This document shows, in pieces, positions 22,210 through 62,250 of a stretch of 64,000 bases of DNA. The notes under the pieces are model-generated. The model was not told where the DNA came from. It worked only from the letters and a program-made list of their open reading frames with translations, and did no database searches. A program made the translations under genes and the position numbers. Every line of letters begins with the position of its first letter. Position 1 is the stretch's first letter. The DNA is from Pseudonocardia autotrophica (lineage in GTDB: Bacteria > Actinomycetota > Actinomycetes > Mycobacteriales > Pseudonocardiaceae), in the NCBI RefSeq assembly GCF_000717175.1, contig NZ_JNYD01000003.1:248001-312000 (forward strand), in the 5' to 3' direction.

Positions 22210-22212
22210 CCC

Positions 22213-22252
22213 GTGAGTGCCTACTGCCCCTAGAGGGGCAGTAGGCACTCAC
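22213..22252. repeat. 40-nt GTGAGTG palindrome, copy 1 (likely bidirectional terminator)
   Basis: Perfect 19-bp arms (GTGAGTGCCTACTGCCCCT and its complement) around a 2-nt centre. It starts 4 nt after the glnE stop and ends 31 nt before the stop of the convergent DUF5685 gene. Related copies of the same length are at 39365-39404 and 53706-53745. The flank (GGCTGAGCTGCG) is shared with the third copy. Confidence 0.9.
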
Positions 22253-22283
22253 GACCTGGGCTGAGCTGCGAAAACGAGCCGGG

Positions 22284-39358: not shown

Positions 39359-39364
39359 TCCGTC

Positions 39365-39404
39365 GTGAGTGGCGATGGTCGCTCCAGCGACCATCGCCAC
39401 TCAC
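39365..39404. repeat. 40-nt GTGAGTG palindrome, copy 2 (likely bidirectional terminator)
   Basis: Arms GTGAGTGGCGATGGTCGCT and complement, 19 bp with a 2-nt centre. It starts 7 nt after the deacetylase-GT2 stop and ends 5 nt before the convergent lipB stop codon. Same total length and same outer 7 bp as the copies at 22213 and 53706, but a different inner core. Confidence 0.9.
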
Positions 39405-39408
39405 GGGC

Positions 39409-46236: not shown

Positions 46237-47046
46237 CTACCGAGTCTTGCGGGCGCCGATCGCCTGCATCACGGGAGCGGCGCGCAGCAGCGGGCCGGGG
46301 GCCAGGGCGGTCAGCCGCATCATCGCGCCGCGCCAGCCCGGGACCGTCTTGTAGACGCGCCCGGTGCCGAACAGCCCGACCAGCTCGGTGGCCACGCGGT
46401 CCGGGGTGAGCAGCACACCGGACCGGACGAGCGCCCGCGCCCGCGGTTCCATCGTGTCGAGCAGGGCCGTCGCGACGCCGTCGGGGTTGATCGCGTGCAC
46501 CCGGATCCCGTCCGCCCGCACCTCGGCCGACAGCGCGGAGGCGAGGGAGAGCACGGCGGCCTTCGTCGCGGCGTAGAGCGAGAGGCCCGGCACGGGCCCG
46601 AGCCCGGACAGCGAGGCGGTGATCGCGAGGTCGCCCCCGCCGCCCTGCTCGCGGAACGCGGCGATCGCGGCGCGCGAGCCCCACACCGGGCCCAGCAGGT
46701 TGATCTCGACCAGGGCCCGGGCCTCGGCGTCGGTCAGCTCGGCCAGCGGGCCGCCGGTGCCGACGCCGGCGTTGCTCACCCACGCGCCGAGGGGCGCCAG
46801 CTCACGGGCGCGGGCGGCGACGGCGTGCGCGGCGGCCGGGTCGGTGACGTCGTAGGCGGCGGACTCGCCGCCGATCTCCGCGGCCGTCGCCTTCGCCGCG
46901 GTCTCGTCGACGTCGGTCACCAGGACGCGGTAGCCGCGCCCGGCGAGCTCGCGGGCGATCGCCGCGCCGATGCCGCGCGCGCCACCGGTGACGACGGCCG
47001 AGCGGGAGCCTGTGGGGACCGAGTGGGCGACACGGCGGCGGATCAC
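46237..47046 (-). CDS. Short-chain dehydrogenase/reductase
   Basis: A 269-aa classical SDR. Cofactor motif AVVTGGARGIGAAIARELAG, NAG motif (SNAGVGTGG), catalytic Ser in TASLSG and the YxxxK pair in SLYAATKAAV are intact. The residue after the second strand is Asp (VTDVDETAA), which favours NAD over NADP. Start GTG 47046 is chosen; the longer open frame reaches upstream into sequence that is antisense and promoter for the membrane protein. Substrate unknown. Confidence 0.9.
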   Translation of the reverse strand: MIRRRVAHSVPTGSRSAVVTGGARGIGAAIARELAGRGYRVLVTDVDETAAKATAAEIGGESAAYDVTDPAAAHAVAARARELAPLGAWVSNAGVGTGGPLAELTDAEARALVEINLLGPVWGSRAAIAAFREQGGGGDLAITASLSGLGPVPGLSLYAATKAAVLSLASALSAEVRADGIRVHAINPDGVATALLDTMEPRARALVRSGVLLTPDRVATELVGLFGTGRVYKTVPGWRGAMMRLTALAPGPLLRAAPVMQAIGARKTR

Positions 47047-47158
47047 CGGCGTGACCTTACCCGCGGGTAGCTCTCGGGGGAGCCCCGAACGCCGATCCGG
47101 GGGATCACCGGATGTCCGGTCCGTCCCCGGCGGATGGACTCCGGGAGTGCCTCCCGCA

Positions 47159-47818
47159 ATGCTCTCCCGGTCGCGCCCGTCCACCTCCGCCCGTACCTGG
47201 CGGCGGCTCGCCGTCTGGGTCCACCTGCTGTCCTCGGTGGGCTGGATGACCTGCGCGCTCGCGCTGTTCGCGCTGCTCGTGCCCGCCCTGCGGGGTGGCG
47301 CGTCGTGGGCGGTCGAGGCGGCCCACCACCTCGACACCCAGCTGCTCGCGCCGCTGGCCAACACGTCCGCCGCGACCGGCCTGGTGCTCTCGCTCGGCAC
47401 CGCGTGGGGGCTGGCCGTGCACCGGTGGGTGTTGACGAAGCTCGTGATCACCCTGGTGCAGCTCTACCTCGGGATCTTCGTGCTGTCGGGGGCGCTGGAC
47501 ACCGCCTCCCACACGCTCCGCGTCTCGCCCGCCCTGGTCGTCGGCACGGCGCTGATGGCGAGCGCGATCGCTGTGCAGGCCTGGCTCTCGGTCACCAAGC
47601 CCGGCGGGCGCACCCGCTGGGGCACCCGGGGCGGGCGGCCGGTCACGCTCCCGACCGCGCCGCCTCGGGTGTTCGCGCTGGTCGTCGCCGCCCCGGTGGT
47701 GGACGTGACGCTCGGCCTGCTCCTCGGCTTCCCCTCGCCCCTGTGCTCGCTGACCGCGGTGCTCGTCGCCGCGGTGGTCCGCCACCGCACCCTCCGCCGC
47801 CGGGGCGTGCCGGCGTAG
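47159..47818 (+). CDS. Four-helix hypothetical membrane protein
   Basis: A 219-aa protein with four to five membrane helices (first: WVHLLSSVGWMTCALALFALL). His residues at membrane borders (VWVHLL, AHHLDTQLL, AVHRW) recall membrane heme-binding or DUF2269-like proteins but are not enough for assignment. Start ATG 47159 (GGGAG 11 nt upstream) or GTG 47147. Its stop codon is immediately followed by the first 22-bp repeat array. Function unknown. Confidence 0.75.
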   Translation: MLSRSRPSTSARTWRRLAVWVHLLSSVGWMTCALALFALLVPALRGGASWAVEAAHHLDTQLLAPLANTSAATGLVLSLGTAWGLAVHRWVLTKLVITLVQLYLGIFVLSGALDTASHTLRVSPALVVGTALMASAIAVQAWLSVTKPGGRTRWGTRGGRPVTLPTAPPRVFALVVAAPVVDVTLGLLLGFPSPLCSLTAVLVAAVVRHRTLRRRGVPA

Positions 47819-47820
47819 CT

Positions 47821-47940
47821 CCCGACTCGCGGTGCCAGAGCTCCCGACTCGCGGTGCCAGAGCTCCCGACTCGCGGTGCGGGAGCTCCCGACTCGCGGTG
47901 CCAGAGCTCCCGACTCGCGGTGCCAGATCTCCCGACTCGC
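47821..47940. repeat. 22-bp tandem repeat array 1
   Basis: Five units of CCCGACTCGCGGTGCCAGAGCT (with minor variants at positions 15-16 and 20) and a partial sixth. It starts 2 bp after the stop of the four-helix membrane protein gene. Same family and same orientation as array 2 at 48211-48310. Confidence 0.93.
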
Positions 47941-48210
47941 GGACGCGTGGGGGCGGCTCCCGGACGTCGGTGCGGCCCGACGCGCGACGCATGATCGCCG
48001 TCGCCGTGCGCCCAGGGCGGACAGTCGAACCGCGGATGCACGCAGGCGTCGATCATGGCGGCGCGCACGGGTTGGTGATCACCGTTTGCGTGCAGCGGCG
48101 GCCGCGGACACCACGCCCACCGCACACGATCGTCGATCTTCGACAGGAAGCGACCTCGAAGCGGCGTCGGGTACCACCACGGCCTTCGAGTCCGGCGCCG
48201 CGCCGGAGCT
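47941..48210. other. Intergenic sequence between repeat arrays 1 and 2; no gene seen
   Basis: About 270 bp between the arrays, between the membrane-protein gene and pepA (convergent). I see short open frames only, with no RBS-supported start and no protein-like composition. No hairpin comparable to the other convergent terminators was found. Confidence 0.5.
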
Positions 48211-48310
48211 CCCGACTCGCGGTGCGGGAGCTCCCGACTCGCGGTGCGGGAGCTCCCGACTCGCGGTGCCGGAGCTCCCGACTCGCGGTGCCGGAGCTCC
48301 CGACTCGCGG
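48211..48310. repeat. 22-bp tandem repeat array 2
   Basis: Four units of CCCGACTCGCGGTGCGGGAGCT / CCCGACTCGCGGTGCCGGAGCT and a partial fifth, in the same orientation as array 1. It ends 28 bp before the pepA stop codon, so arrays 1 and 2 lie at the two 3' ends of the convergent pair. Confidence 0.93.
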
Positions 48311-48338
48311 GAGCCCGGCTCGAGCCGCGAGCCGCGGG

Positions 48339-49874
48339 TCAGCCGTTGGCGGCGATGTCCTCGAGGAGGGCGACGAGGGTGCGGACCGGCACGCCGGTGC
48401 CGCCCTTGGGTGTGTAGCCCCAGGGGCCCCCGGTGTTGAACGACGGGCCGGCGATGTCGATGTGCGCCCACGGCAGCCCGTCCGCGACGAACTCGCGCAG
48501 GAAGATGCCGGCGGCGAGCATGCCGCCGAAGCGGTTGCCGGTGACGTTGGCCAGGTCGGCGATGCGGGAGTCGAGCTCGCCGCGCAGGTGCTCGGGCAGC
48601 GGCATGGCCCAGGCGTCCTCGCCGACGGACCGGCCGAGCGCGGCGACCCGGTCGCGGAAGTCGTCGCTGCCCATGACGCCCGCGGTGCGGGTGCCCAGCG
48701 CGACCATCTGCGCGCCGGTGAGCGTGGAGGTCTCGACGAGGTAGTCGGGGTCGTCCTCGGCGGCCCGGACCATCGCGTCGGCCAGGATCAGCCGGCCCTC
48801 CGCGTCCGTGTTGAGCACCTCGACGGTCTTGCCGCCGTACATCGACAGCACGTCGCCCGGCCGGTACGCGGTGTCCGACGGCATGTTCTCGGCCATCGGC
48901 ACGGTCGCGGTCACGGCGACGGGCAGCTGCAGCTTCGCGGCGAGCACCGTCGTCGCGATCACCGCGGCGGCGCCGGACATGTCCGACGTCATGTGATCCA
49001 TGTTGGCGGCGGGCTTGATCGAGATGCCGCCGGTGTCGAACGTGATGCCCTTGCCGATCAGCGCGACCTTCTTCGCGGGGTTCTCCCCGCCCGACCAGCG
49101 CAGCCGGACCAGCCGCGGCAGCCGCGACGAGCCCTGCCCGACGCCGAGGATGCCGCCGTACCCGCCGGCGGCCAGCGCCTCGTCGTCGAGCACCTCGACC
49201 GCCAGCCCGGCGGCCTCGCCCAGCTCGCGGGCCCGCGCGGCGAAGGTCTCGGGGTAGAGCGCGTTGGGCGGGGTGTTGATGAGGTCCCGCGCGGTGCTCA
49301 CCGCCTGGGCGACGGCGAAGGCGTGCTCGAGGACGTCCGCGTCCGCCCCCGGGAACTCCACGGACTCGATCGGCTTCTTCCCGGCCGTCGGGTCGCCCTT
49401 GAACGCGGTGAACCGGTAGGCCCCGAGCAGCACGCCCTCCGCGGCGGCGGTCAGGTCGACCGCGCCCAGGGTGCTGACCACGCGGCCGCTGCCGGCCAGG
49501 GCCCGGGCCACCGCGCCCGACGCCCGCCGCACCTGGTCGGCGGGGATCGCGCCGGACTCGTCCGGCTTGCCGAGCCCCACCCCGACGACGAGCGGGGAGC
49601 CGACCGCCCCGCGCGAGGGCAGCTTCACGACCTCCTCGACCTTGCCGGTGGCGCCGGCGAGCGCGAGCAGCCCGGCGAGCGTGCCGTCGAAGGCGGCGTC
49701 GATCTCCTCGGCGCCGGGCGCGAGGACCGGCTCGGCGCCGTTCCCGTTCGAGCCCTCGCCGTTGCCGTTCGCGCCCGGGAGCAGGCCGACGACGAGGACG
49801 TCGGCCTCGGCCGCCGCGGCGGGCCCCTCCAGGGCGCCGATGCGGGTGCCGGTCTGCGGGACGGTGGTCGTCAA
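48339..49874 (-). CDS. pepA: Leucyl aminopeptidase (M17)
   Basis: A 511-aa M17 aminopeptidase that removes N-terminal residues using two metal ions, normally a hexamer. The metal and substrate sites are clear: [15 protein letters not shown] (Lys, Asp) and [13 protein letters not shown] (Asp, Glu, Arg). The N-terminal domain has an unusual Gly/Asn/Glu-rich loop ([11 protein letters not shown]). TTG 49874 is the likely start because GAGGAG lies 7 nt upstream and no better start is in frame; the frame continues to 49973 without protein-like sequence. Corresponds to M. tuberculosis PepB (Rv2213). Confidence 0.94.
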
Positions 49875-50065
49875 GGCGGGTCTCCTCGGTCGGGGTCGGG
49901 CGCCGCCCGGCGGTCCCGGGGCGGGGTACGGCGGCGTGAGCGGGTTGGCATCGCCGGGCCCGGGGCGCCGCACCGCCCGTCGACGAGCGGTCCGAGCGCC
50001 CGGCGAGACCTCTTCGAAATGCTAATGACACCGTCGCGGGGCCGTTTCGCACAGGGTCGGATGCA

Positions 50066-51424
50066 ATGGTGGTGACCGTGGCAACGACCCTCGGACGCCG
50101 CCTGGGTACCGCCGACGTGGTGGTGCTCGGGCTCGTCGCCATGCTCGGGTCCGGGGTCTTCGCCGTCTTCGCACCCGCCGGCGCCGCGGCGGGGCCGTGG
50201 CTGCTCCTGGCGGTGCTGCTGGCCGCGGTCGTCGCGGGGACCTGCGTGCTGTCCACCGCGGAGCTGGTGCTCGCGGGCGGCTCGGGCGGGGCGAGCTTCT
50301 CCGCCGGGTACACGGCCGGCTACGTCGCGGCCCGGGACCGCCTGCACCCCGTCGCGGGCCGGCTCGCCGGCGTCACGCTGCTGATCGGCGGGGTCGCCTC
50401 GGCGGCGGCGGCCGCGGGCGTGTTCGGGGCGTACGTGCTGCCGTCGAACCCGCTGGTGGCCGGGATCGTCGTGATCGTCGCGGCCACGGTGCTCAACGTC
50501 GTCGGGGTCCGGACGACCGCCCGCTCCTCCTGGCTGCTGGCCGGCGGGACGCTCGCGGTGCTGGTCGTGGTGGTGGTCGTCGGGCTGCTGGGCCCGGGTG
50601 GGGAGCAGACGGTCTCGGCGGCGGTCACGGCAGCGGGCGAGGCCCGCGGGGTCGCGGTGCCCGTGCCGCAGGCCTCGCCGGGTGCGCTGGGCGTGCTCTC
50701 GGCCGCGGGGCTGGTGTTCTTCGCGTTCGTCGGGTTCGCCAACGTGGCGACCTACCGCGAGGAGGTCCGCACCCCGGCCCGCACCCTGCGCCGCGCGATC
50801 CCGATCGCCCTCGCCGTCTGCACGCTGACCTACCTCGCCGTCGCGGGGGCGCTGCTGATGGGACTGGGCACGGACCGGATCGGCGAGGAGCACGCGCCGC
50901 TGGTCGCGCTCGTCGACACCGGCCAGGCGCCCGCGCTGGGCGTGCTGGTGCGCATCGGCGCCGCGGCGGCCGCCGGCTCGACGCTGCTCGCCGTGCTGAT
51001 CGGGATCAGCCGCACGGCCATGGAGATGGGGGCCCGGGAGGACCTGCCCCGCTCGTTCGCGAAGGTCTGCGGCAGCGGCGCCCCCTGGCGGTCCGACGTC
51101 CTCGGCGCGGCCCTGGCGATCCTCGTCGCCGTGCTCGCCGGGCCGGTGGCGTCCATCGCGCTGTCGGCCTGCGCGATGCTGCTGCACTACGCGCTCGTGC
51201 ACGCGGCGGCGCTGCGGGTCCCCGACCGGCGGACCCCGGCCTGGGTGGCGGCCGTCGGGTTCGTGCTGTGCCTGGGGCTGGCCGCGCTGCTGCCGCGGAC
51301 GTCGGTGCTGATCACCCTCGGCGCCCTGGCGGTGGGCTGGGGGCTGTCCGAGCTGTCGGCGCTGCGGGCCCGCCGGAGACCGCCGCCGCCGCAGGAGGAG
51401 GCACCGGGGGAGCAGGCGGCCTGA
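50066..51424 (+). CDS. APC-superfamily amino acid permease
   Basis: A 452-aa transporter with about 12 helices. The N-terminal helix 1 [13 protein letters not shown] contains the broken-helix Gly motif of APC transporters, helix 6 [21 protein letters not shown] is the family signature, and the C-terminus is a basic/Pro-rich tail. Substrate likely an amino acid or amine. ATG 50066 is used; GTG 50072 is an alternative. The next gene gcvT starts 13 bp after the stop, so the permease and gcvT probably form one operon. Confidence 0.88.
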
Positions 51425-51437
51425 GTACGGTTTGCCC

Positions 51438-52538
51438 GTGACCGACGAGCTGATCACGGGACCGCTGCACGACCGGCACGTCGCGCTGGGGGCGACCCTC
51501 GGCGCCTTCGGCGGCTGGTCCATGCCGATCGCCTACCCGGCCGGCACCGTGGCCGAGCACACCGCCGTCCGCGAGGCGGTCGGGGTCTTCGACGTCAGTC
51601 ACCTCGGCAAGCTGCTGGTCCGCGGGCCGGGCGCGGCGGACTTCGTCAACTCCTGCCTCACCGCCGACCTCGGGAGGATCACGCCGGGGAAGGCGCAGTA
51701 CACCTTGTGCTGCACGGAGTCCGGCGGCGTGGTCGACGACCTCATCGCCTACCTGGACGGGCCGGACGAGGTCCTCCTGGTCCCGAACGCCGCCAACGCC
51801 GCCCGGGTCGCCGAGCTCCTGCGCGCGGCGGCGCCGGCCGGGATCGAGATCGTCGACCGGCACCGCGAGCTCGCCGTGATCGCCGTGCAGGGGCCGCGCT
51901 CCGCCGAGCTGTTCCACACCATGTTCGCCGGGTTCTCCGGCGTCCCCGGGCTGGACTACATGGCATTCGCCGACGCCGGCGCCGTCCGGGTCTGCCGCAC
52001 CGGCTACACCGGCGAGCACGGCTACGAGCTGCTCGTGCCGGCCGCGCAGGCCCCCGAGGTCTGGGAGGGGCTCCTCGCCGGCGCGGAGCCGCTCGGCGGG
52101 CGGCCGTGCGGGCTGGGCGCGCGGGACACGCTGCGCACGGAGATGGGCTACCCGCTGCACGGCCAGGACCTCAGCGAGGAGATCACCCCGGTGCAGGCGG
52201 GCAGCTCGTGGGCGGTCGGTTGGTCGAAGCCGGCGTTCTGGGGCCGCGAGGCGCTGCTGGCCGAGCGCGAGGCCGGGCCGGCGCGGCGGCTGCGCGGGCT
52301 GCGGGCCACCGGGCGCGGGATCCCGCGGGCCGGGATGACGGTCCTGGCCGGCGGCGAGCCGGTCGGCGTCACGACCTCGGGCACCTTCTCGCCGACGCTC
52401 AGGACCGGCATCGCGCTGGCGCTGATCGACACCGCGGCGGGGGTGTCCGCCGACGACGTCGTGACCGTCGACGTCCGAGGTCGCTCACTCGAGACGCAGG
52501 TGGTGAAGCCCCCGTTCGTCCCGTCGCACGTCCGATGA
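51438..52538 (+). CDS. gcvT: Glycine cleavage system T protein (aminomethyltransferase)
   Basis: A 366-aa aminomethyltransferase transferring the methylene carbon from the H-protein lipoyl arm to tetrahydrofolate. Motifs: [49 protein letters not shown] and the C-terminal TSGTFSPTL. The start is GTG 51438. gcvP and gcvH are not in the window, as in mycobacteria, where Rv2211c stands alone. It lies 13 bp after an APC permease and 53 bp before ilvE. Confidence 0.95.
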
Positions 52539-52591
52539 TCGGGCACCCGACCGGCTGACACGCGCCTTGCCCCGCGGGTTACCGTTCATTC

Positions 52592-53701
52592 ATGAACGCG
52601 CCGCTGTTCACCCGCATCCCGAACCCCGCGCCGGCCTCCGACCAGCGGCGCAGCGAGATCCTGGCCGCACCGGGGTTCGGCCGGCACTTCACCGACCACA
52701 TGGTCTCGATCCGCTGGACGGTCGGCGAGGGCTGGCACGACTTCACGGTGGAGCCGTACGGGCCGATCGCGCTCGACCCGGCGACGATGGTCCTGCACTA
52801 CGGGCAGGAGATCTTCGAGGGCCTCAAGGCCTACACCCAGCCGGACGGCACGATCGCGTCGTTCCGGCCGGAGGAGAACGCGGCGCGGTTCCGCCGGTCC
52901 GCGGTGCGCCTGGGCATGCCCGAGCTGCCGGACGAGCTGTTCATGGCCGCGCTGCGCGAGCTGGTCGACGTCGACCGCGCCTGGGTGCCCCCGGCCGGCG
53001 GCGAGGAGTCGCTCTACCTGCGGCCGTTCATGATCGCTACCGAGGTCGGACTGGGCGTGAAGCCCGCCGACTCGTACCTCTTCCTGCTCATCGCCTCGCC
53101 CGCCGGCGCGTACTTCCCGGGCGGGGTCAAGCCCGTCGACGTCTGGCTGTGCACGGACTTCACCCGGGCCGCGATCGGCGGGACCGGCACCGCGAAGTGC
53201 GGCGGGAACTACGCCGCCTCGCTGCTGCCGCAGGCCCAGGCCGCGCAGCACGGGTGCGCGCAGGTCGCCTACCTCGACGCCGCGGAGAGGCGCTGGGTCG
53301 AGGAGATGGGCGGGATGAACCTGTTCTTCGTCTACGGCTCCGGGGAGTCGGCCGAGCTGGTCACGCCGGAGCTGTCCGGCAGCATCCTCGAGGGCGTCAC
53401 CCGGCACTCGCTGCTCACCCTGGGCAAGGAGATCGGCTGCCAGGTCACCGAGCGCAAGATCTCCGCGCGGGAGTGGCTCGTGGGGTGTGCGGACGGGGCC
53501 ATCACCGAGGTGTTCGCCTGCGGCACCGCGGCAGTGATCACACCGGTCGGCAACGTCAAGTTCAGCGAGAACACCGGCGTCGGGTCGATCCGCGTGGCCG
53601 ACGGCGAGCCCGGTGCGGTCACCATGCGCCTGCGCACTCTGCTCACCGACATCCAGCGGGGCACCGGCACGGACACCCACGGCTGGATGACCGCCCTCTG
53701 A
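52592..53701 (+). CDS. ilvE: Branched-chain amino acid aminotransferase
   Basis: A 369-aa fold-type IV PLP aminotransferase, last step of leucine, isoleucine and valine synthesis. Pyridoxal lysine is Lys202 in [12 protein letters not shown]; other landmarks are [21 protein letters not shown] and [13 protein letters not shown]. Length and spacing match the mycobacterial enzyme (Rv2210c). ATG 52592. A 40-nt palindrome begins 5 bp after its stop and separates it from convergent cobS. Confidence 0.97.
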
Positions 53702-53705
53702 CCCC

Positions 53706-53745
53706 GTGAGTGCCGACTGCCCCTAGAGGGGCAGTCGGCACGCAC
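53706..53745. repeat. 40-nt GTGAGTG palindrome, copy 3 (likely bidirectional terminator)
   Basis: GTGAGTGCCGACTGCCCCT pairs with its complement over 19 positions with one mismatch (CGCAC instead of CTCAC at the right end) and a 2-nt centre. It differs from copy 1 at only a few positions, and the next 20 bp are also nearly the same. Starts 5 nt after ilvE and ends 30 nt before the cobS stop. Confidence 0.9.
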
Positions 53746-53774
53746 GACCCCGGCTGAGCTGCGCGGATGCCGGA

Positions 53775-54509
53775 TCAGGCCGTGGCGAGGACCAGCAGGA
53801 CCGCGGCGGCGCCCAGCTCCGCCGCCGCGCCCAGGACGTCCCCGGACATCCCGCCGAACCGGCGCGCCGTGTGTGCGGACAGCGCCACCACGAGAACGGC
53901 CGCCAGCGCGACGCCGGCCGGCCCGCGCCAGCCCGCGACCGCGTAGCCCGCGGCGGCCAGCACGGCCCACCACACCGGCGCCACCCACGCGGCCTGCGAC
54001 TCGGCGACCATCGCGCCGAGCCCACCGGGCCGTGCGGCGGGCACGCCGCGGCGGGCGACCCAGCAGAATCCGGCCCGGCCCGTCGCGACGGCGATCGCGC
54101 TCCCGGCCACGGCGTGCCAGCTCGTCAGGGCGCCCAGCGATCCCGCCTGGACCCCGAGGACGACCAGCAGCGTCACCGCGGCGAAGGGCCCCGCGCCGCC
54201 GTCCTTCATCACGGCGAGCGCGCGCTCGGGCGGGCCGAAGCAGCCCAGCCCGTCGGCGGTGTCCGCGAGCCCGTCGACGTGCATCCCGCGCGTGCCGAGG
54301 GCCAGCACCCCGACGGCGAGCAGGCCGGCGACCAGCCCGGGCACGCCCACCGCGGTGAGCCCCCGGACGACCAGCCCGGCGACGCCACCCAGCAGGGCCC
54401 CGACCAGGGGAGCCCAGCGCAGCGCCCCGGCCGCGGTCCGCGCCGACGGGATCCCAGTCCGGACGGGCAGGACGGTGAGCCAGCTCAGCGCGAGGGCGAG
54501 CGCGCTCAT
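53775..54509 (-). CDS. cobS: Adenosylcobinamide-GDP ribazoletransferase
   Basis: A 244-aa membrane enzyme joining adenosylcobinamide-GDP to alpha-ribazole (phosphate) in the last steps of cobalamin synthesis. The acidic motif GTRGMHVDGLADTADGLGCFG is the substrate-binding site of the family, next to MKDGGAGPFAA. Remaining sequence is hydrophobic helices. Located downstream of cobT, with which it is 7 bp apart (cobT stop 54517), so cobU-cobT-cobS form one operon with the DUF3043 gene in front. Confidence 0.95.
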   Translation of the reverse strand: MSALALALSWLTVLPVRTGIPSARTAAGALRWAPLVGALLGGVAGLVVRGLTAVGVPGLVAGLLAVGVLALGTRGMHVDGLADTADGLGCFGPPERALAVMKDGGAGPFAAVTLLVVLGVQAGSLGALTSWHAVAGSAIAVATGRAGFCWVARRGVPAARPGGLGAMVAESQAAWVAPVWWAVLAAAGYAVAGWRGPAGVALAAVLVVALSAHTARRFGGMSGDVLGAAAELGAAAVLLVLATA

Positions 54510-54516
54510 CCGGCTC

Positions 54517-55578
54517 TCACCCCGCGACGGCGCGCACGGGCGCGATCCCGCTCGCCTCCGCGGTCGTGGTCTCGCCGAGCAGCCGGGCGGCCGCCTGGAT
54601 CAGCGGCAGCACCGCGACCGCGCCCGTGCCGTCCCCCTGGCGGACCTGCAGGTCCAGCACCGGGACGAGCTGCAGGTGCTGGAGGACGAGCGTCATCGCG
54701 GGTTCGGGGGAGTTCTGGGCGGCGAGCCACCAGTGGTGCGCGCCGGGGGCCAGCTCGTCGGCCAGTAGGGCCGCGGCGCCGACCACGAGGCCGTCGAGGA
54801 GCACGGGGGTGCGGCGCAACGCGGCCTGCACGAGGAACCCGGTGAGGACGGCGAGGTCGGCGCCACCCGCCGTGCGCAGCAGCGCGTGCGGGTCGCGGAC
54901 GTGCGGCTTCGCGCGGCGCAGGGCGTCGCGGATCGCGGCGGCCTTGCGCATCCACGCGTCGTCGCCGATGCCGGACCCCCGCCCCACGACGGCGACCGGC
55001 TCGGCCCCCGTCACCGCCGAGACCAGTGTCGACGCGGGCGTGGTCGCGCCGACCCCCAGGGAGGCGGGGACGAGCAGATCGGCGCCGGAGTCGACCTCCT
55101 CGTCGGCCAGCGCGCGGCCGATGCGGATCGCGGTCTCGACCTCGGCGGTCGTGAGGGCGTCCTCGCGGTCGATCCGGCCGCTGCCCCGGCGGACCTTGAA
55201 CCGCTCCTGGCCGGGCAGCAACGCCTCCCGGTCCAGCCCGGCGTCGACCACCCGGACCGAGGCCCCGGACACCGAGGCCGCCACCGCGACCGGCGCGGAC
55301 TGCTCCAGCGTGGCCGCGACCTGCCGCGCGGTGACCTCCGGCGGATAGGCGGAGACCCCGGCGGCCGCGATCCCGTGGTCGGCCGCGACGACGACCACGC
55401 GCACCCGCGCGGGCGGCCGCGGCGGGCAGGTGCCCTGCATCGACGACAGCCACAGGCCAAGGTCGGCGAGCACGCCCAGCCCGCCCGCGGGCACCGCCAG
55501 CGCCTCGTACCGGGCGACGGCCTCGCGCCGCGCCTCGAGGTCGGGTGCGGGCACGGCGGGGAAGGGACTCTCGCTCAC
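54517..55578 (-). CDS. cobT: Nicotinate-nucleotide-dimethylbenzimidazole phosphoribosyltransferase
   Basis: A 353-aa CobT making alpha-ribazole phosphate from the lower ligand base and nicotinate mononucleotide. Recognisable segments: VVAADHGIAAAGVSAYP, RVVDAGLD, LGVGATTPAST (phosphate-binding Gly/Thr), AGGADLAVLTGF and PVLLDGLVVGAAAL. The start is GTG 55578. It lies between cobU and cobS in the same direction, with short gaps. Full length for the family. Confidence 0.95.
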   Translation of the reverse strand: MSESPFPAVPAPDLEARREAVARYEALAVPAGGLGVLADLGLWLSSMQGTCPPRPPARVRVVVVAADHGIAAAGVSAYPPEVTARQVAATLEQSAPVAVAASVSGASVRVVDAGLDREALLPGQERFKVRRGSGRIDREDALTTAEVETAIRIGRALADEEVDSGADLLVPASLGVGATTPASTLVSAVTGAEPVAVVGRGSGIGDDAWMRKAAAIRDALRRAKPHVRDPHALLRTAGGADLAVLTGFLVQAALRRTPVLLDGLVVGAAALLADELAPGAHHWWLAAQNSPEPAMTLVLQHLQLVPVLDLQVRQGDGTGAVAVLPLIQAAARLLGETTTAEASGIAPVRAVAG

Positions 55579-55625
55579 GCGCCCTTCCTACCGTCCGCCC
55601 TGCGCAGGCGTCGCGGCAGCCCTGG

Positions 55626-56156
55626 TCACGGGCCCTTCAACCGCAGCGGCAGGCCCGCCACCAGCAGCACCACCTCGTCGCACACCTCGGCGAGGGCGGC
55701 GTTGAGGGCGCCGAGCTCGTCCCGGAACAGTCGCCCGGCGCGGGTCGCGGGGACCACGCCCAGCCCGACCTCGGCGGACACCAGCACGCACGACGCCTCG
55801 GACCGGGCCTGCCGCACGCTCTCGACCAGCGTCGCGACGGCGTCCTCGACCCCGGGCGGGGTGGTGGGCGCCTCCCAGGCCTCGGTGTCGTCGAGCACGC
55901 CCGTCAGCCAGGTGGCGAGGTCGTCGATCAGCAGCGGGCCGCCGCGGGCGAGCTCGGCGACCAGGTCGGGCTCCTCGACGGTGGTCCAGCAGGCCGGCCG
56001 GCGCGCGGCGTGCCGGGCGATCCGGGCCTCCCACTCGAGGTCGTCCGGCCGGCGGCGGGCGGTGGCGGCGTAGCGGACCGGGGCGTCGGCGGGCAGCAAC
56101 GCCTCGGCGTACCCGGACTTGCCCGACCGGGTGCCGCCCAGGACGAGGGTCCTCAG
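55626..56156 (-). CDS. cobU: Adenosylcobinamide kinase/guanylyltransferase, apparently CTG-started
   Basis: A 176-aa CobU phosphorylating adenosylcobinamide and attaching GMP. P-loop GGTRSGKS (7-14), then the RRRPDDLEWEARIARH segment with the catalytic His (RIARHAARRP) and DDLATWLTG. The frame upstream has no ATG, GTG or TTG close to the P-loop; the only sensible start is CTG 56156, whose CTGA overlaps the TGA of the DUF3043 gene by 3 bp. This copies the ATGA/GTGA couplings seen elsewhere. If so it is a rare CTG initiation; otherwise the product must be translated by coupling at another codon. Confidence 0.9.
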   Translation of the reverse strand: MRTLVLGGTRSGKSGYAEALLPADAPVRYAATARRRPDDLEWEARIARHAARRPACWTTVEEPDLVAELARGGPLLIDDLATWLTGVLDDTEAWEAPTTPPGVEDAVATLVESVRQARSEASCVLVSAEVGLGVVPATRAGRLFRDELGALNAALAEVCDEVVLLVAGLPLRLKGP

Positions 56157-56797
56157 ACCTGCGCCCCGCGCTGGACCCGCGGCTTCGGCACCCGCAGCTT
56201 GCGGATCTGGCTGGCCCGGGTGAAGGCGTACCACCCGGTGCCGAGCCCGCTGATCTGCTCGTCCGGGAACTTGGCCCGCGCCTGCTTCGTGACGCGCATC
56301 CCGAGCGTGACGCCCTCGACCACCATCACGAACAGCACGACCAGGCTGAACAGGCTCAGGTACTGCTGCACCGCCGGGATCGGCAGCAGCACCGAGATCA
56401 GCACCACCACGGCGAGCGGCATGAACAGGCCCATCAGGTGCGGCCGCGAGTCCACGACGTCCCGGATGTAGGCCTTCACCGGACCGCGGTCGCGGGGGAG
56501 GAGCACCCGGTCGTCGCCGGCGTCCATCCGCGCGCGGCGCTCGGCGGCCTGGGCGCGGCGCTCGTCCTTGCTCGGGCGGTTGGCCTTGGCCAGGCGGGCG
56601 GCCTCGCGCTGGGTCTTCGGCGGGGGCGGGGCCGGGCCGCGACGCTTGGTCTCGGCGTCGCGGCGCTTCGGCGTGGGCCGGCCCTTGCCCTGCGTCCAGC
56701 GCGGATCGAGCGGCTTCTTCTCCTGCGTGCCCTCGGCCTCGTCCGTGTCGACGGACGCGGATGCCGGGGAATCGTCGGAGCGGCGCAGGAACCTCAC
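56153..56797 (-). CDS. DUF3043-family membrane protein
   Basis: A 214-aa actinobacterial protein: an acidic then strongly basic disordered N-terminal half (KKPLDPRWTQGKGRPTPKRR), a conserved DRGPVKAYIRDVVDSRP segment, two adjacent membrane helices (about 120-165) and a short basic C-terminal domain (IRKLRVPKPRVQRG). Matches M. tuberculosis Rv2206 in position. GTG 56797. Divergent from the glycerate kinase across about 34 bp and overlapping cobU at its 3' end. Function unknown. Confidence 0.92.
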   Translation of the reverse strand: MRFLRRSDDSPASASVDTDEAEGTQEKKPLDPRWTQGKGRPTPKRRDAETKRRGPAPPPPKTQREAARLAKANRPSKDERRAQAAERRARMDAGDDRVLLPRDRGPVKAYIRDVVDSRPHLMGLFMPLAVVVLISVLLPIPAVQQYLSLFSLVVLFVMVVEGVTLGMRVTKQARAKFPDEQISGLGTGWYAFTRASQIRKLRVPKPRVQRGAQV

Positions 56798-56831
56798 AGG
56801 TCCACAGGGTACGGGCGATAGCGTGCGCGGT

Positions 56832-57962
56832 GTGCGTGTGGTCGTCGCTCCCGACTCCTTCGGCGGAACACTGAGCGCGCGGGCCGCGGCCGGCGCCATC
56901 GCGGAGGGCTGGTTGCGCGCCGTCCCCGACGCCCGGATCGACCGCCTCCCGCTGGCCGACGGCGGCACCGGCTTCGTCGACGTCCTGCAGGAACGGCTGG
57001 GCGGGGCTCTGCACGAACCGCAGGTCACCGGCCCGTTCGGCGATCCGGTGACCGCCCCGTGGCTGCAGGTCGGCACGACCGCCTACGTCGAGTCGGCGGC
57101 CGCGTGCGGGCTGCACCACGTGCCCCGGGAACGGCGGACGCCGGACGTGGCGGGCCGTGTCACCACGCGCGGGGTCGGCGAGCTGCTGCGCGCGGCGCGG
57201 GCCGCGGGCTGCACCGAGGCCGTCATCGGGCTCGGCGGCTCGGCCACCACGGACGGCGGCGCGGGCATGCTCGCCGCGCTCGGGGCCGCCCCGCTCGACG
57301 CGTCGGGCGCCGAGCTGCCACCCGGCGGGGCCGACCTGGGGCGGTGCGTGCGGCTCTCCGGCACCCCGGACGTCGGGATGACGCTGGTCGCGGCTGCGGA
57401 CGTCGACAACCCGCTGCTCGGCCCGCACGGCGCCGCCGCGGTGTTCGGGCCGCAGAAGGGGGCGGACGAGGGCGCGGTCGCGGCGCTCGACGCCGCCCTG
57501 GCCGTGTGGGCGGACGTCCTCGCGGAGGCGACGGGCCGGGACGTCCGCGACGAGCCCGCCGCCGGAGCCGCCGGCGGCCTGGGGGCGGCGCTGCTGGCGC
57601 TCGGTGCGCGCCGCGAGTCCGGGGCGGGTCTGGTCCGCCGCCTGCTGGGGCTCGACGAGGCGCTCGACGCCGTCGCCGCCGAGGGCGGGCTGGCGATCAC
57701 CGGCGAGGGCAGCTTCGACTGGCAGTCGCTGCGCGGGAAGCTCATCACCGCGGTGGCCGGGGCGGCCGCCGAGCGCGGCGTGCCGTGTGTCGTCCTGGCC
57801 GGGCAGGTGAGCGTCGGGCGGCGCGAGGCGGCCGCGGCAGGTGTCGACGCCGCGTACTCGGCCTCGGAGCACGCCGGCGGGATCGAGGCCTCGATGGCCG
57901 ATCCGGCGGGCACGCTGGCGGCACTCGCCGAGCACGTCGCGCGCCGGTGGGGCTCGTCCTGA
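56832..57962 (+). CDS. Glycerate kinase-family protein
   Basis: A 376-aa GlxK-family enzyme phosphorylating D-glycerate (to 2-phosphoglycerate in characterised class II-like members). Signature VVVAPDSFGGTLSARAAA at the N-terminus, LADGGTGFVDVL, GLGGSATTDGGAG and the C-terminal GQVSVGRREAAAAGVDA. The start is GTG 56832 (or GTG 56823). Equivalent to Rv2205c in context. Divergent from the DUF3043 gene. Other hydroxy-acids are possible substrates. Confidence 0.93.
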   Translation: MRVVVAPDSFGGTLSARAAAGAIAEGWLRAVPDARIDRLPLADGGTGFVDVLQERLGGALHEPQVTGPFGDPVTAPWLQVGTTAYVESAAACGLHHVPRERRTPDVAGRVTTRGVGELLRAARAAGCTEAVIGLGGSATTDGGAGMLAALGAAPLDASGAELPPGGADLGRCVRLSGTPDVGMTLVAAADVDNPLLGPHGAAAVFGPQKGADEGAVAALDAALAVWADVLAEATGRDVRDEPAAGAAGGLGAALLALGARRESGAGLVRRLLGLDEALDAVAAEGGLAITGEGSFDWQSLRGKLITAVAGAAAERGVPCVVLAGQVSVGRREAAAAGVDAAYSASEHAGGIEASMADPAGTLAALAEHVARRWGSS

Positions 57963-58108
57963 CCGTCCGGTGACCCGGATCACCCGATCCGGGGGCGGCG
58001 GATTCCCGCAGGCCCCGGAGGGTGTCGGCGGGAGGGCCTACTATGGGTCGAGGCACGACTCCCGGGTCGCCGGGAACAGTTCCGCCACGTGCGCTGTTGG
58101 GAGAGTTC

Positions 58109-58477
58109 ATGACCGTCGAGAACACCGTCGAGGCCGGCGCCGCCGAGGAGACCCACGGCGTCGAGCTGACCGACAACGCCGCCCTCAAGGCGCGCTCCCT
58201 GCTCGAGCAGGAGGGCCGTGACGACATGCACCTGCGCATCGCCGTGCAGCCCGGTGGCTGCGCCGGTCTGCGCTACCAGCTCTTCTTCGACGACCGTTCG
58301 CTCGACGGCGACCTGTTCCGTGACTTCCACGGCCTCAAGGTCGGCGTGGACCGGATGAGCGCGCCGTACCTGCAGGGCGCGGTCATCGACTTCGTCGACA
58401 CGATCGAGAAGCAGGGCTTCACCATCGACAACCCGAACGCGGGCGGCTCCTGCGCCTGCGGCGACTCCTTCAACTGA
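58109..58477 (+). CDS. HesB/IscA-family iron-sulfur carrier protein
   Basis: A 122-aa A-type carrier that delivers Fe-S clusters to apoproteins. The three conserved cysteines are Cys51 (GGCAGLRY), Cys115 and Cys117 (SCACGDSF). ATG 58109 has GGGAG upstream; the longer frame to 58022 covers promoter sequence. Corresponds to Rv2204c. It stands alone between glycerate kinase and adoK and is followed by a terminator. Confidence 0.95.
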   Translation: MTVENTVEAGAAEETHGVELTDNAALKARSLLEQEGRDDMHLRIAVQPGGCAGLRYQLFFDDRSLDGDLFRDFHGLKVGVDRMSAPYLQGAVIDFVDTIEKQGFTIDNPNAGGSCACGDSFN

Positions 58478-58493
58478 GTCTCGGCGTCGCGGA

Positions 58494-58533
58494 CCCCCGG
58501 GTCGAGGAAGATCACCTCTTCTTCACCCGGGGG
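58494..58533. terminator. Hairpin terminator after the IscA-like gene
   Basis: CCCCCGGGT pairs with ACCCGGGGG (9 bp), with additional weak pairing inside the 22-nt loop (GAAG with CTTC), and is followed by TTTCGTC, one of the few T-rich tails in the window. It separates the IscA-like gene from adoK. Confidence 0.78.
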
Positions 58534-58558
58534 TTTCGTCATGTCTGACGTAAGGTGA

Positions 58559-59542
<984 letters not shown>

Positions 59543-59558
59543 CCCCGACCACACCCCC

Positions 59559-59698
59559 CGAGTCGCGCTCTGGGCTGTGGCGAGTCGCGAGTTCTGGCAT
59601 CGCGAGTCGCGAGTTCTGGCACCGCGAGTCGCGAGTTCTGGCACCGCGAGTCGCGAGTTCTGGCACCGCGAGTCGCGAGATCTGGCACCGCGAGTCGG
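59559..59698. repeat. 22-bp tandem repeat array 3 (inverted orientation)
   Basis: Six units of CGAGTCGCGAGTTCTGGCACCG (the first degenerate) and a partial seventh. The reverse complement matches the units of arrays 1 and 2 with two changes, so it is the same family in opposite orientation. It begins 16 bp after the adoK stop. Confidence 0.93.
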
Positions 59699-59754
59699 CA
59701 TCTTCGGGAGACCGGCCCGGGGCCGCCGATCCACAGCGCCCGCCCAGCCCCGGC

Positions 59755-60167
59755 GCCGAGCTGGCCCGGGCGACTACGTCGGCGCAGTTCGCGCTGGCCG
59801 GGCGCTCGGCCGTCGAGGGGCTGCACCACCTGCGCGCCGCCCGGACCGCGCTCGCCATGGATCCGGGACCCGAGATCCCCTTGCTCGCGCGACCGGCCCT
59901 GGCGTGGTGCGCGTCGGCGAGCGGGAGTACGCGTCGTCGCCGCAACGGGGCGCGGCCACGCCCTACTACTTCGCGGGCGGCACCGTGCAGGGGCGACAGG
60001 TACCGGCGGGCTGGTACGCCACGCCCTGGTGGAAGACCGCGCTGCTCGGCGGCGCGGCCGGCCTGGGCGGCGCAGTGCTGTTCGACGCCCTCTTCGACGG
60101 GCCCGGCCATCACCACGGCCCGGGCCCGTTCGACGGATTCGGCGGCCCCTTCGGCCCCGGCTTCTGA
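59755..60167 (+). pseudogene. Frameshifted gene remnant between repeat arrays 3 and 4
   Basis: Two protein-like stretches lie in adjacent frames. Frame of 59755: AELARATTSAQFALAGRSAV and EGLHHLRAARTALAMDPGPE. Then, after about 59905, the other frame gives VRVGEREYASSPQRGAATPY, YFAGGTVQGRQVPAGWYATP and a Gly-rich membrane-like segment (LLGGAAGLGGAVLFDALF) to a stop at 60167. Read together they look like one protein with a helical N-terminal part and a hydrophobic C-terminus, broken by a frameshift near 59905 and lacking a start because array 3 lies in front. The second half alone could still be expressed from GTG 59910. I do not recognise the intact family. Confidence 0.5.
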
Positions 60168-60202
60168 CGCACCGGCCGCAGCGGCTCGCGGGAGCCCAGG
60201 GC

Positions 60203-60303
60203 GCGACTCGCGGAAGCCAAGAGCGCGACTCGCGCTGCCGGAACTCGCGACTCGCGCTGCCGGGCCGACTCGCGCTGCTGGAACTCCCGACTCGCGGTTA
60301 CAG
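60203..60303. repeat. 22-bp tandem repeat array 4, reaching into the asnB stop
   Basis: Four to five more diverged units of the same family (core GCGACTCGCGCTGCCGGAACTC; one unit is 18 bp) in the orientation of arrays 1 and 2, inverted relative to array 3. The last partial unit runs over the asnB TAA stop (60298-60300). Confidence 0.85.
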
Positions 60304-62250
60304 GGTGACGGGGTAGGCGGGCTCGGGGACCTCGGGGGTGATCCGGCGCTCGACGAAGATGCCGTACCAGATCAGGAAGACCAGCAGCGTCCAGATCCGA
60401 CGGCTGTGGTCGACGGGCCCCTCGCGGTGGGCGTCGAGCATCGCCTGGACCGCGGGCAGGTCGACCAGGTGGCCGGCCCCCGAGTCCCGGATGATCTCGC
60501 GCGCCCAGGCGTACATCTCGTCCCGCAGCCAGTGCCGGATCGGCACCGGGAAGCCCAGCTTGCGCCGGTTGAGCACGTGCGACGGCACGATCTGCGACAG
60601 CGCCCCGCGCAGCGCGTACTTGGTGGTGCCGCTCGCGCCGCCGGTGATCTTCTGCGCCAGCGGCAGCGCCGAGGCGACCCGGAACACCTCGGGGTCGAGG
60701 AACGGCACGCGCAGCTCGAGCGAGTTGGCCATGGTCATCTTGTCGGCCTTGACCAGGATGTCGCCGCGCAGCCAGGTGAAGAGGTCGACGTGCTGCATCC
60801 GCGCCACCGGGTCCCACTTCTCCGACGCGGCGTAGTGGGGAGCCGTGACGTCCGTGTGCGAGACCCGCGGGTCGTACTGGCGCAGGATCTCGTGCAGCTG
60901 GTCGTCCCGGAAGATCCGGGCGTTGCCGTAGTAGCGCTCCTCGAGCCGCAGCGAGCCCCGGCGCAGCAGGTCCTTGCCGCGCATGCCTTCCGGCAGCCGG
61001 CGCGACGCCCGCCCGAGCAGCGGCCGCAGCGTGCCCGGCACCTTCTCGAACGGCGACAGCGACAGCGGCTCGCGGTAGATCGTGTAGCCGCCGAACAGCT
61101 CGTCCGCCCCCTCGCCGGACAGCACGACCTTGACGTGCTGGCGGGCCTCGCGGGCGATGAACCACAGCGGGACGAGCGCCGGGTCGGCCACCGGGTCGTC
61201 GAGGTACCAGACGATCAGGGGCAGCGCCTCCATCATCTCGTCCGGCTTGACGGTGCGGACGACGTGCCGGACGCCGATCGCCGCCGCGGACTCGGCCGCG
61301 ACGTCGACCTCGGAGTAGCCCTCGCGCTCGAAGCCGGTGGTGAAGGTGATGAGGTCCGGGTTGTGCTCCTTGGCCAGCGCCGCGATGGCCGTGGAGTCGA
61401 TGCCACCGGAGAGGAAGGCGCCCACGGTGACGTCGGCGCGCATGTGCTTGGCCACGGAGTCCCGCAGGACCTCGGTGATCTCGCCGTGCACGATCGCCTC
61501 CGCCTCGGCGCTGGCCGGGGCGTGCGAGGGCAGCGACACGAACTTCGGGTGGAAGTAGCGGTGCTGCACGGGCTGCTGCCCGGCCTTCACCGTGACGTAG
61601 GTCCCGGACTCGACGCGACCGATCGCGCGGTGCAGCGTCTCGGGCTCCGGGACGTACTGCAGGATCAGGTAGTGCTGCAGCGCGGCCGGGTCCAGCTCGT
61701 CCGAGCCGGCGATACCCAGCTCGGGGGCCAGCTCCAGGAGGCTCTTCTTCTCGCTCGCGAACGCGACGCCGGTCGGCCCGGACGCGAGGAACAGCGGCTT
61801 GATGCCGAACGGGTCCCGCGCGACGAACAGCTGCCGCTCCCGGGCGTCCCAGATCGCGAAGGCGAACATCCCGCGCAGCCGCGTGACGGCCTCGGCGCCC
61901 CAGTGGTGGTACGCCGCGACGACGGCCTCGGTGTCGCCCTCGGTCGCGAACTCCGCGCCCAGCCCGGCGAGCTCCTCGCGCAGCTCGAGGTAGTTGTAGA
62001 CCTCGCCGTTGAAGACGATGGTGTACCGGCCCGCGTCCTCGGCGGGTGCCGGCGGCCAGTGCAGCGGCTGGTGGGAGCCCGCCACGTCGATGATGGAGAG
62101 CCGGTTGAAGCCCAGCACCACGTCGTCGTCGTTCCAGGTGCCGCTCTCGTCCGGCCCGCGGTGCCGAGCGCACCTCAGGGCGCCGGCGATGGCATCGGTT
62201 CGGTCGGCCGCGTCAGCGCCGGCGGTCAGCAGTCCCAGCAGTCCGCACAC
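60298..62250 (-). CDS. asnB: Asparagine synthetase (glutamine-hydrolysing)
   Basis: A 650-aa class II amidotransferase/synthetase. Translation from GTG 62250 gives MCGLLG, putting the glutaminase nucleophile at Cys2 as required. Further motifs: RHRGPDESG, NRLSIIDV, FNGEVYNY in the glutaminase domain and LSGGIDSTAIAAL (PPi loop) and SGEGADELFGGY in the synthetase domain. Corresponds to M. tuberculosis AsnB (Rv2201). Divergent from ctaC. The final codons lie next to repeat array 4. Confidence 0.96.
   Translation of the reverse strand: MCGLLGLLTAGADAADRTDAIAGALRCARHRGPDESGTWNDDDVVLGFNRLSIIDVAGSHQPLHWPPAPAEDAGRYTIVFNGEVYNYLELREELAGLGAEFATEGDTEAVVAAYHHWGAEAVTRLRGMFAFAIWDARERQLFVARDPFGIKPLFLASGPTGVAFASEKKSLLELAPELGIAGSDELDPAALQHYLILQYVPEPETLHRAIGRVESGTYVTVKAGQQPVQHRYFHPKFVSLPSHAPASAEAEAIVHGEITEVLRDSVAKHMRADVTVGAFLSGGIDSTAIAALAKEHNPDLITFTTGFEREGYSEVDVAAESAAAIGVRHVVRTVKPDEMMEALPLIVWYLDDPVADPALVPLWFIAREARQHVKVVLSGEGADELFGGYTIYREPLSLSPFEKVPGTLRPLLGRASRRLPEGMRGKDLLRRGSLRLEERYYGNARIFRDDQLHEILRQYDPRVSHTDVTAPHYAASEKWDPVARMQHVDLFTWLRGDILVKADKMTMANSLELRVPFLDPEVFRVASALPLAQKITGGASGTTKYALRGALSQIVPSHVLNRRKLGFPVPIRHWLRDEMYAWAREIIRDSGAGHLVDLPAVQAMLDAHREGPVDHSRRIWTLLVFLIWYGIFVERRITPEVPEPAYPVTL

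Follow-up and report, generated by a model that had tools for sequence, protein, structure and literature searches.

In the genome of Pseudonocardia autotrophica, a stretch of 64,000 bp (RefSeq assembly GCF_000717175.1, contig NZ_JNYD01000003.1, positions 248,001 to 312,000; referred to here as the window, and corresponding to positions 248001-312000 of the contig designated C3) raises the question why four genes are each followed by tandem copies of a 22-bp unit. An initial annotation had noticed the four arrays, which border two convergent intergenic gaps (membrane-protein gene/pepA and adoK/asnB; Table 1), and had considered a role for them in transcript ending, nucleoid organization, or recombination. 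By following these arrays through the genome of the window (G000; 8.02 Mb) and through other genomes, we found that they belong to a dispersed repeat family that stands far more often than expected directly behind stop codons, that is oriented with respect to transcription, and whose linkers are specific to the species. Genomes are designated here by G-numbers, and the species names attached to these numbers are inferred.

A Dispersed Repeat Positioned and Oriented at Gene Ends

Tandem Repeats Finder confirmed all four arrays with a period of 22 bp, and they do represent a single repeat family; as initially described, arrays 1, 2, and 4 have one common orientation, relative to which array 3 is inverted. 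The core of the unit, CGACTCGCG, whose quasi-palindromic nature had been recognized correctly, occurs 21 times in the window vs. 7.4 times in shuffled sequences (none of 100 shuffles reached 21); a looser 11-mer with one mismatch allowed was not above the shuffles (44 vs. 38). Throughout G000, the exact 14-mer CGACTCGCGGTGCC is found 130 times (reversed control, once) and the paired core CGACTCGCG-N13-CGACTCGCG 270 times (reversed control, 0). Distances below 100 bp from one exact core to the next, a tally in which a few cores are counted twice because regions overlap, were exactly 22 bp in 241 of 261 cases, and 44 bp was the next most frequent value with seven cases.

The placement of the arrays relative to genes was assessed in a sample of 100 arrays (39 from G000, 36 from G009, 12 from G020, seven from G448, and six from G013), four of which were excluded because they were duplicates or lay at the edge of a region; six lie in genes and 90 are intergenic. 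Genes were called with a codon-usage script instead of a standard caller, and the expected values derive from 500 random placements in the gaps of the same regions; the 20 additional G000 regions and the regions of the other species were picked for holding the core, and array density is unbiased only on contig C3. No more than 30 bp separate 65 of the 90 intergenic arrays from the 3′ end of a gene (11.2 expected; SD 3.2), and five are equally close to a start (14.8 expected). The 3′-end association proposed from the window thus holds far beyond chance, although the unit also occurs in genes (six of 96 sampled arrays), a finding that the initial annotation had named as an argument against it. 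Convergent gaps hold 33 of the 90 arrays (16.3 expected) and divergent gaps seven (25.7 expected). Hence, the original emphasis on convergent gaps captures a real enrichment, but 3′ ends in tandem gaps carry arrays commonly as well.

The arrays also follow the direction of transcription. When the array is read as part of the transcript of the gene that it follows, the sequence is CGCGAGTCG in 52 of the 65 cases at 3′ ends (binomial p = 1e-6), an orientation to which we refer as the rule; tandem gaps alone yield 37 arrays in this and 13 in the other orientation. Arrays 2, 3, and 4 of the window obey the rule, and array 1 runs against it with respect to the membrane-protein gene.

Distribution and Species-Specific Linkers

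Among 62 genomes of the genus, 38 contain the paired core (reversed control, 0 in all 62), with at least 50 pairs in 24 genomes and none in another 24. When 397 genomes were drawn from the order, five had matches, namely two of the three from this genus and three of the 394 others; the latter are G448, a member of another genus of the same family with 128 pairs, and two genomes with two pairs and one pair, respectively. In a CobT tree covering 30 of the 62 genomes, sister species differ strongly in the number of first-family pairs: 178 in G009 vs. 0 in G071, 85 in G022 vs. 10 in G033, 25 in G011 vs. 0 in G004, and 286 in G016 vs. 5 in G008, with the last pairing being weakly supported.

In five species (G000, G009, G020, G448, and G013), the core carries 1.1-2 bits per position, mostly at least 1.5, a conservation between species that exists partly by construction, as the search for first-family arrays relied on the core, matched exactly or nearly so. 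In the same species, conservation of the 13-bp linker is weak, with a GGAA-like tendency. Linkers of different arrays have an identity of 0.57-0.79 within a species and of 0.21-0.46 between species, at 0.29 expected from the composition of G000; the linker is a species-specific dialect. Adjacent linkers of one array are more alike than linkers of different arrays in G000, G009, G448, and G013, and G020, for which three pairs only are available, forms the exception. The initial conclusion that the arrays are not clustered regularly interspaced short palindromic repeats (CRISPR) is borne out by these data, since the 13-nt linkers are common within a species and hence are not unique spacers; moreover, the arrays stand at many gene ends (cas genes were not searched).

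A chromosome-scale strand-polar signal found no support: the arrays listed for G009, which cover the first 3.4 of 6.3 Mb, number 16 on each strand when counted by eye, a weak test since the origin was not located. In the accessible excerpts of open-licence papers, we found no description of such arrays in Pseudonocardia.

A Second Core Family with the Same Layout

In G071, Tandem Repeats Finder detected period-22 arrays with a different core, and P. oceani has one such array directly behind pepA. This second core, GGCGAGTTYGCC, shares its 22-bp period, its place, and its orientation with the first family, and the hexamer GCGAGT is common to both cores in the sense strand (CGCGAGTCGCG and GGCGAGTTYGCC). 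The pattern GCGAGTTYGC-N12-GCGAGTTYGC, which by design admits only C or T at one core position, was present in six of the 62 genomes (reversed control, 0), with counts of 71 in G009, 38 in G063, 21 in G068, 87 in G071, and two each in G005 and G076. In the CobT tree, the first four of these genomes group together as one clade and G076 is placed elsewhere; G005 lies outside the tree sample. Twenty second-family arrays were contained in the fetched sequence, two of them overlapping called genes; of the 18 intergenic ones, 13 are at most 30 bp away from a 3′ end, all but one of them in rule orientation, counts for which no permutation was run. One or the other family is present in at least 39 of the 62 genomes.

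Other tandem repeats were encountered along the way. An 18-bp repeat directly behind pepA of P. nigra (L192, 10645-10746) was rejected as a third family, being a single local repeat with two overlapping matches in one of the 62 genomes. P. oroxyli (G069) carries about six copies of a 35-bp tandem repeat, whose unit begins with GCGAGTGCGC, at positions 129099-129311 of contig C8; this repeat may be related to the gene-end arrays as well. In the joined regions L160-L169 of G020 (P. asaccharolytica), 31-bp tandem arrays of related units (GCTGAGCGGAGCTTGCGAAGCGAA...) are present at 61860-61969 and 66723-66822.

Orthologous Gene Ends and Hairpins

When convergent gaps of 40-700 bp in G000 were inspected for hairpins with a stem of 12 or more, these were found in 39 of 80 gaps without an array vs. 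two of 13 gaps with an array (p = 0.034). Both of the latter hairpins are built of array letters, and their omission leaves 0 of 13 (p = 0.0005). The corresponding figures for gaps with vs. without an array are 0 of 7 vs. 3 of 24 in G009 and 0 of 1 vs. 4 of 15 in G020, numbers that afford no power, and the stretches from G030 and G069 contained no array gaps for this test.

The adoK/asnB gap is filled differently from species to species. P. kujensis (G066) has two inverted arrays and P. terrae (G030) a single inverted unit pair in a gap of 106 bp; plain, unrelated hairpins are found in P. oroxyli and in the metagenome-assembled genome RYN_120, and the gaps in L184, L188, L194, and L195 are longer and contain no first-family array. 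G000 and P. terrae have first-family units behind pepA, P. oceani has second-family ones, and these are the three array-bearing ends among 19 distinct pepA 3′ ends; in addition, G063 has one second-family unit and P. nigra its unrelated 18-bp repeat. P. terrae keeps two to three units at this locus together with the segment between arrays 1 and 2, and it lacks array 1 and the membrane-protein gene (no tblastn match at the locus). No arrays are present at the pepA locus of P. kujensis, where a 3′ remnant of the membrane-protein gene is left; with this gene being present, absent, or a remnant, gene content evidently changes beside the arrays.

Copy number varies as well, in the manner by which variable number tandem repeats (VNTR) and mycobacterial interspersed repetitive units (MIRU) are defined: another convergent gap, with little else between the stops, has four units in G000 and two in P. 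terrae. The four window arrays show no change in copy number between G000 and G065 of the same species. At one further convergent gap, G000, G013, and G009 all have arrays, with differing linkers and at 59-70% protein identity (no formal null).

The sister of G009, G071 (P. petroleophila), is collinear with it and shares about 90% DNA identity. In G071, short gaps without arrays correspond to two array sites of G009, and about 47 bp correspond to a third site, which is occupied by an inverted pair in G009; no clear target duplication was discernible by eye when filled and empty sites were compared. Behind the same genes as two of the G009 arrays, G063 lacks both arrays and G068 lacks one (its other site was not fetched). 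One of these ends in G063 bears a hairpin with a 20-bp stem, as recognized by eye, with a far-side gene that did not align.

The tendency of arrays and hairpins to exclude each other in the convergent gaps of G000 and the replacement of arrays by hairpins at several orthologous ends suggest that the arrays occupy the position of terminators. Among the three roles considered in the initial annotation, a putative one at transcript ends is therefore the best supported, and a recombination role finds no direct support beyond the fact that some genes are bracketed by arrays.

Several convergent gaps of G000 contain a recurrent hairpin family with the arms CGTGAGTGGCGATAGTCGC ... GCGACTATCGCCACTCACG and close variants thereof (window positions ~39358-39411 and 22209-22285; C3 positions 634694, 126990, 736102, 752967, and 162205). 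Its 11-mers are found behind 8-10 of the 461 gene ends on contig C3 (~0.03-0.16 expected), and similar hairpins occur in the pepA and adoK/asnB gaps of P. oroxyli L181. Another recurrent hairpin of convergent gaps, with arms like CACGAACGGCACTCTCGT / GGCGAACGGCGCTCTCGCTCACC, is present at C3 340155, 242117, and 769031.

Predicted RNA Folding

Neighbouring units can pair with each other because each core is nearly self-complementary, and folding predicts 10-13 base pairs per two-unit segment. The sense strand of the arrays is predicted to fold better than the antisense strand in G000 (z of -2.2 vs. -0.3), in G020, and in P. kujensis/terrae. For the second family, a 14-bp stem with G-U pairs and an 8-nt loop is predicted in the sense transcript; across 11 arrays, the sense strand folds better than antisense (z of -3.2 vs. 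-1.3) and better with the real than with shuffled linkers (-18.3 vs. -14.9). One constant RNA fold was rejected, as predictions are inconsistent between species. A Rho utilisation site was also discarded as a general explanation, since a C-rich sense strand was seen in the arrays of G009 and G448 and in the second family, but in none of G000, G020, and G013. A search of window positions 47000-61000 against Rfam gave no match above the gathering score and merely two sub-threshold matches to microRNA models.

Arrays Inside Genes

Six of the 96 sampled arrays overlap genes, and five of these are truly internal. They reside in murD of G000, in genes for an amine oxidoreductase and an acyltransferase in G009, in cobN of G020, and in an ABC transporter gene of G448; the sixth, from G013, overlaps a histidine kinase gene at its 3′ end. 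Five of the six contain three cores and one contains five. Three periods amount to 66 bp, a multiple of three. At the array position, the MurD protein of G000 (P0121) has 21 residues more than P0122, and the alignment of 14 MurD proteins revealed related inserts in P0121, P0123, P0125, P0126, and P0127, inserts of different wording in P0130 and P0134, and none in P0122, P0124, and P0128. P0122 and P0124, from which the insert is absent in frame, are 96-97% identical to P0121 overall. Judged from the protein sequences, the inserts of the relatives may derive from array DNA. In CobN, the array coincides with a loop of variable length. The CobT of G000 is 100% identical to that encoded by a record named P. 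halophobica. P0122 itself is a public MurD sequence labelled P. halophobica; at 97% identity to G000 MurD and with the insertion missing, its source may be a species different from G000.

Explanations for the Arrays

The explanation to which we lean, as a tentative one that falls somewhat short of even chances, is that the arrays are self-spreading direct repeats that settle behind stop codons and act there as terminator-like 3′-end elements. Each genome would multiply its own 22-bp units by copying between its arrays, as suggested by linkers that the arrays of one species have in common and those of different species do not, and by relatives in which the corresponding sites are free of arrays. 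Neighbouring units would pair in the transcript and provide each array with several redundant 3′ hairpins, and these hairpins could end or protect transcripts and separate convergent genes.

A number of observations weigh against this explanation. Thirteen of the 65 arrays at 3′ ends carry the other orientation only, 14 of the 19 pepA 3′ ends are without array, unit, or repeat, and G071 manages one gap without any element, with 7 bp between the convergent stops. The antisense strand is the more stable one in the first-family arrays of G009 and in G448, sense and antisense folding do not differ significantly in G013, and shuffling of first-family linkers hardly weakens folding; in G000, G448, and G013 the shuffled versions are even slightly more stable. 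Three internal arrays (in murD and in the genes for the amine oxidoreductase and the ABC transporter) stand in rule orientation, and a strong terminator inside a gene would be harmful unless masked by translation. No T-tract follows the arrays, T making up 14-21% of the next 25 nt. Intrinsic terminators without a U-tract exist, some of them in actinobacteria.

A wider version of the terminator-like reading envisions a punctuation system for gene ends throughout the genus, in which short dyad cores at an exact 22-bp period stand behind stops, point in the direction of transcription, form lineage dialects and at least two core families, are spread among the gene ends of each genome by a putative recognition and copying machinery, and replace terminator hairpins. 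We regard this version as possible but doubtful.

The arrays might alternatively be a selfish micro-repeat without host function, whose units a putative machinery copies to new sites, whose insertion prefers, or survives at, sites behind stops in a manner coupled to the direction of transcription, and whose copy number is altered by slippage. Presence and absence at orthologous places of close relatives, insertions within genes, including that of murD which is missing in frame from two relatives of 96-97% identity, linkers common to the arrays of one genome and more alike when adjacent in four of five species, and the very different array numbers of sister species are all in keeping with it. 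The existence of two core families with the same period, place, and orientation is not readily accommodated, nor are orthologous ends that share arrays at 59-70% protein identity (a comparison without a formal null, and most pepA ends have none), and we consider a purely selfish origin rather unlikely.

This alternative is also burdened by the lack of a mobile carrier among viral contigs, plasmids, and phages. The first-family pattern had no match in the IMG/VR viral contigs, and array 3 had no blastn match among PLSDB plasmids or phage records, a weak search given that linkers differ and repeats may be filtered; a phage, plasmid, or viral carrier consequently has no first-family match in its favour, and the second family was not searched there. 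A system of repetitive extragenic palindromic (REP) elements with a REP-associated tyrosine transposase (RAYT) was rejected because, of the 24 genomes with at least 50 first-family pairs, G022 alone has the RAYT domain PF01797 (one copy) and the other 23 lack it; five of the 62 genomes have PF01797 at all (G003, G008, G015, G020, and G022). A recurrent neighbouring protein as the mobiliser was dismissed as well, as a comparison of 171 genes next to arrays disclosed shared orthologous gaps and no recurrent mobile gene family. Nor do inverted array pairs qualify as transposon ends, for their interiors in G000 are ordinary, unrelated genes, and many arrays have no inverted partner; no general transposase survey was made.

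Still less probable, in our view, is an array that works at the level of the DNA, with a sequence-specific dimeric protein bound to successive dyad cores on one face of the helix, at intervals of 22 bp or about two helical turns, to form a polar roadblock, an insulator, or a nucleoid anchor. The near-perfect dyad of the core with its high information content in five species (in part a product of how the arrays were found), the strict 22-bp phase with 44 bp as the next most frequent distance, and the missing stereotyped RNA fold would fit such an arrangement. However, no candidate protein emerged, array numbers differ strongly between sister species, the listed G009 arrays have no strand bias, and the rule-oriented array inside murD, a gene that is essential in bacteria, would block the transcription of murD itself.

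A signal for DNA uptake or recombination, akin to the DNA uptake sequences (DUS) and uptake signal sequences (USS) with their species dialects and only incidentally in terminator positions, is highly improbable: the arrays share with DUS their species dialects and the presence of inverted pairs near gene ends, and some genes are bracketed by arrays, but DUS, as far as the excerpted source goes, are single short words in thousands of copies that also occur in genes (PMC3630211), as opposed to a few hundred phased units here.

Arrays and Neighbouring Genes in the Window

The features of the two gaps are compiled in Table 1. The first core of array 1 lies 4 bp past the stop of the membrane-protein gene, array 2 is 29 bp away from the pepA stop, array 3 follows the adoK stop at 14 bp, and the last core of array 4 is separated from the asnB stop by 1 bp. 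Tandem Repeats Finder delimits array 4 at 60181-60296 and array 3 at 59580-59697 with 5.4 copies; up to seven units of array 3 are present from 59557 onward when degenerate ones are counted. The segment between arrays 1 and 2 had no match in P. kujensis and no full copy elsewhere in G000, and is thus not itself a repeated element.

Table 1. Repeat arrays, intervening segments, and adjacent genes in the window (window coordinates; TRF, Tandem Repeats Finder).
Feature	Position	Strand	Description
Membrane-protein gene	47159..47818	+	219 aa; no Pfam match; name from the initial annotation; ends at array 1
Array 1	47817..47942	+	~6 units of 22 bp (GAGCTCCCGACTCGCGGTGCCA); 5.7 copies (TRF)
Segment between arrays 1 and 2	47943..48201		Unique; 79% identical counterpart in P. 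terrae (G030)
Array 2	48202..48310	+	5 units (5.0 copies; TRF); rule orientation
pepA	48339..49874	-	Peptidase_M17; 3′ end at array 2
adoK-like PfkB-family kinase gene	58565..59542	+	Family from Pfam; name adoK from the initial annotation; 3′ end at array 3
Array 3	59557..59699	-	5 exact and 2 degenerate units; rule orientation
Segment between arrays 3 and 4	59700..60180		Weakly coding 87-aa open reading frame at 59904-60167; no Pfam match
Array 4	60181..60297	+	~6 units, one step of 18 bp (TRF); rule orientation
asnB (asparagine synthase)	60298..62250	-	3′ end at array 4

Relation to Known Repeats and Significance

In line with the initial annotation, none of the known elements that we considered matched the arrays. 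REP elements are short, palindromic, dispersed intergenic units that are often found at the 3′ ends of genes, sometimes as inverted pairs. The arrays resemble REP and the bacterial interspersed mosaic elements (BIME) in being dispersed, extragenic, and quasi-palindromic (90 of 96 sampled arrays are intergenic), but the Pseudonocardia units are organized in direct, phased 22-bp arrays and mostly occur in genomes without RAYT. MIRU/VNTR loci consist of small tandem direct repeats that are intergenic, present in actinobacteria, and oriented to neighbouring genes, properties shared by the dispersed intergenic arrays described here; MIRU units are several times longer, and we know of no 22-bp phase, dyad core, or species dialects among them.

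The remaining systems are compared on the basis of excerpts from the papers cited. Ribosome termination structures lie directly downstream of stop codons (PMC7518266); the arrays share with these, and with terminators, the position behind the stop and the potential to form hairpins, but they are direct repeats of a core with dialects, and pairing is predicted between units. Rickettsia palindromic elements (RPE) are about 150 bp long and inserted in frame into metabolic genes (PMC10969869), a likeness to the small in-frame insertions in metabolic genes seen here, whereas the arrays are built from 22-bp units and stand mostly behind stops. The DUS of the Neisseriaceae form species dialects of a short core and inverted pairs in terminator positions (PMC3630211) and differ from the phased direct arrays by being far more numerous. 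In marine Beggiatoaceae, the 7-bp unit TAACTGA forms genome-wide intergenic direct repeats, mostly of two to six copies, just upstream of starts (PMC4679880), and the arrays are alike in constituting genome-wide direct repeats at a fixed place relative to genes, but with a 22-bp period and downstream of stops. Borg elements contain rapidly evolving tandem repeats, also within proteins, that are described as arising independently (PMC9879509). The Pseudonocardia arrays, in contrast, belong to one core family dispersed through the chromosome.

For dispersed repeats in bacteria, the usual explanation is a transposase, as for REP/RAYT and miniature inverted-repeat transposable elements (MITEs), or uptake. 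Neither link was found for the 22-bp arrays, yet they are apparently spreading, are phased, respect the direction of transcription, form dialects, and enter coding frames. Beyond what had been noticed in the window, the analysis showed that arrays follow a rule of orientation, that species have dialects, that a second core family exists, that orthologous sites can be empty, and that insertions can be in frame. G009 carries first-family arrays at loci that are collinear and about 90% identical in its sister G071, which lacks this family; with such a pair, both where the arrays come from and what they do to transcript ends can be tested directly. Orthologous ends bearing an array, a hairpin, or nothing amount to a natural experiment on how bacteria end transcripts in GC-rich genomes.

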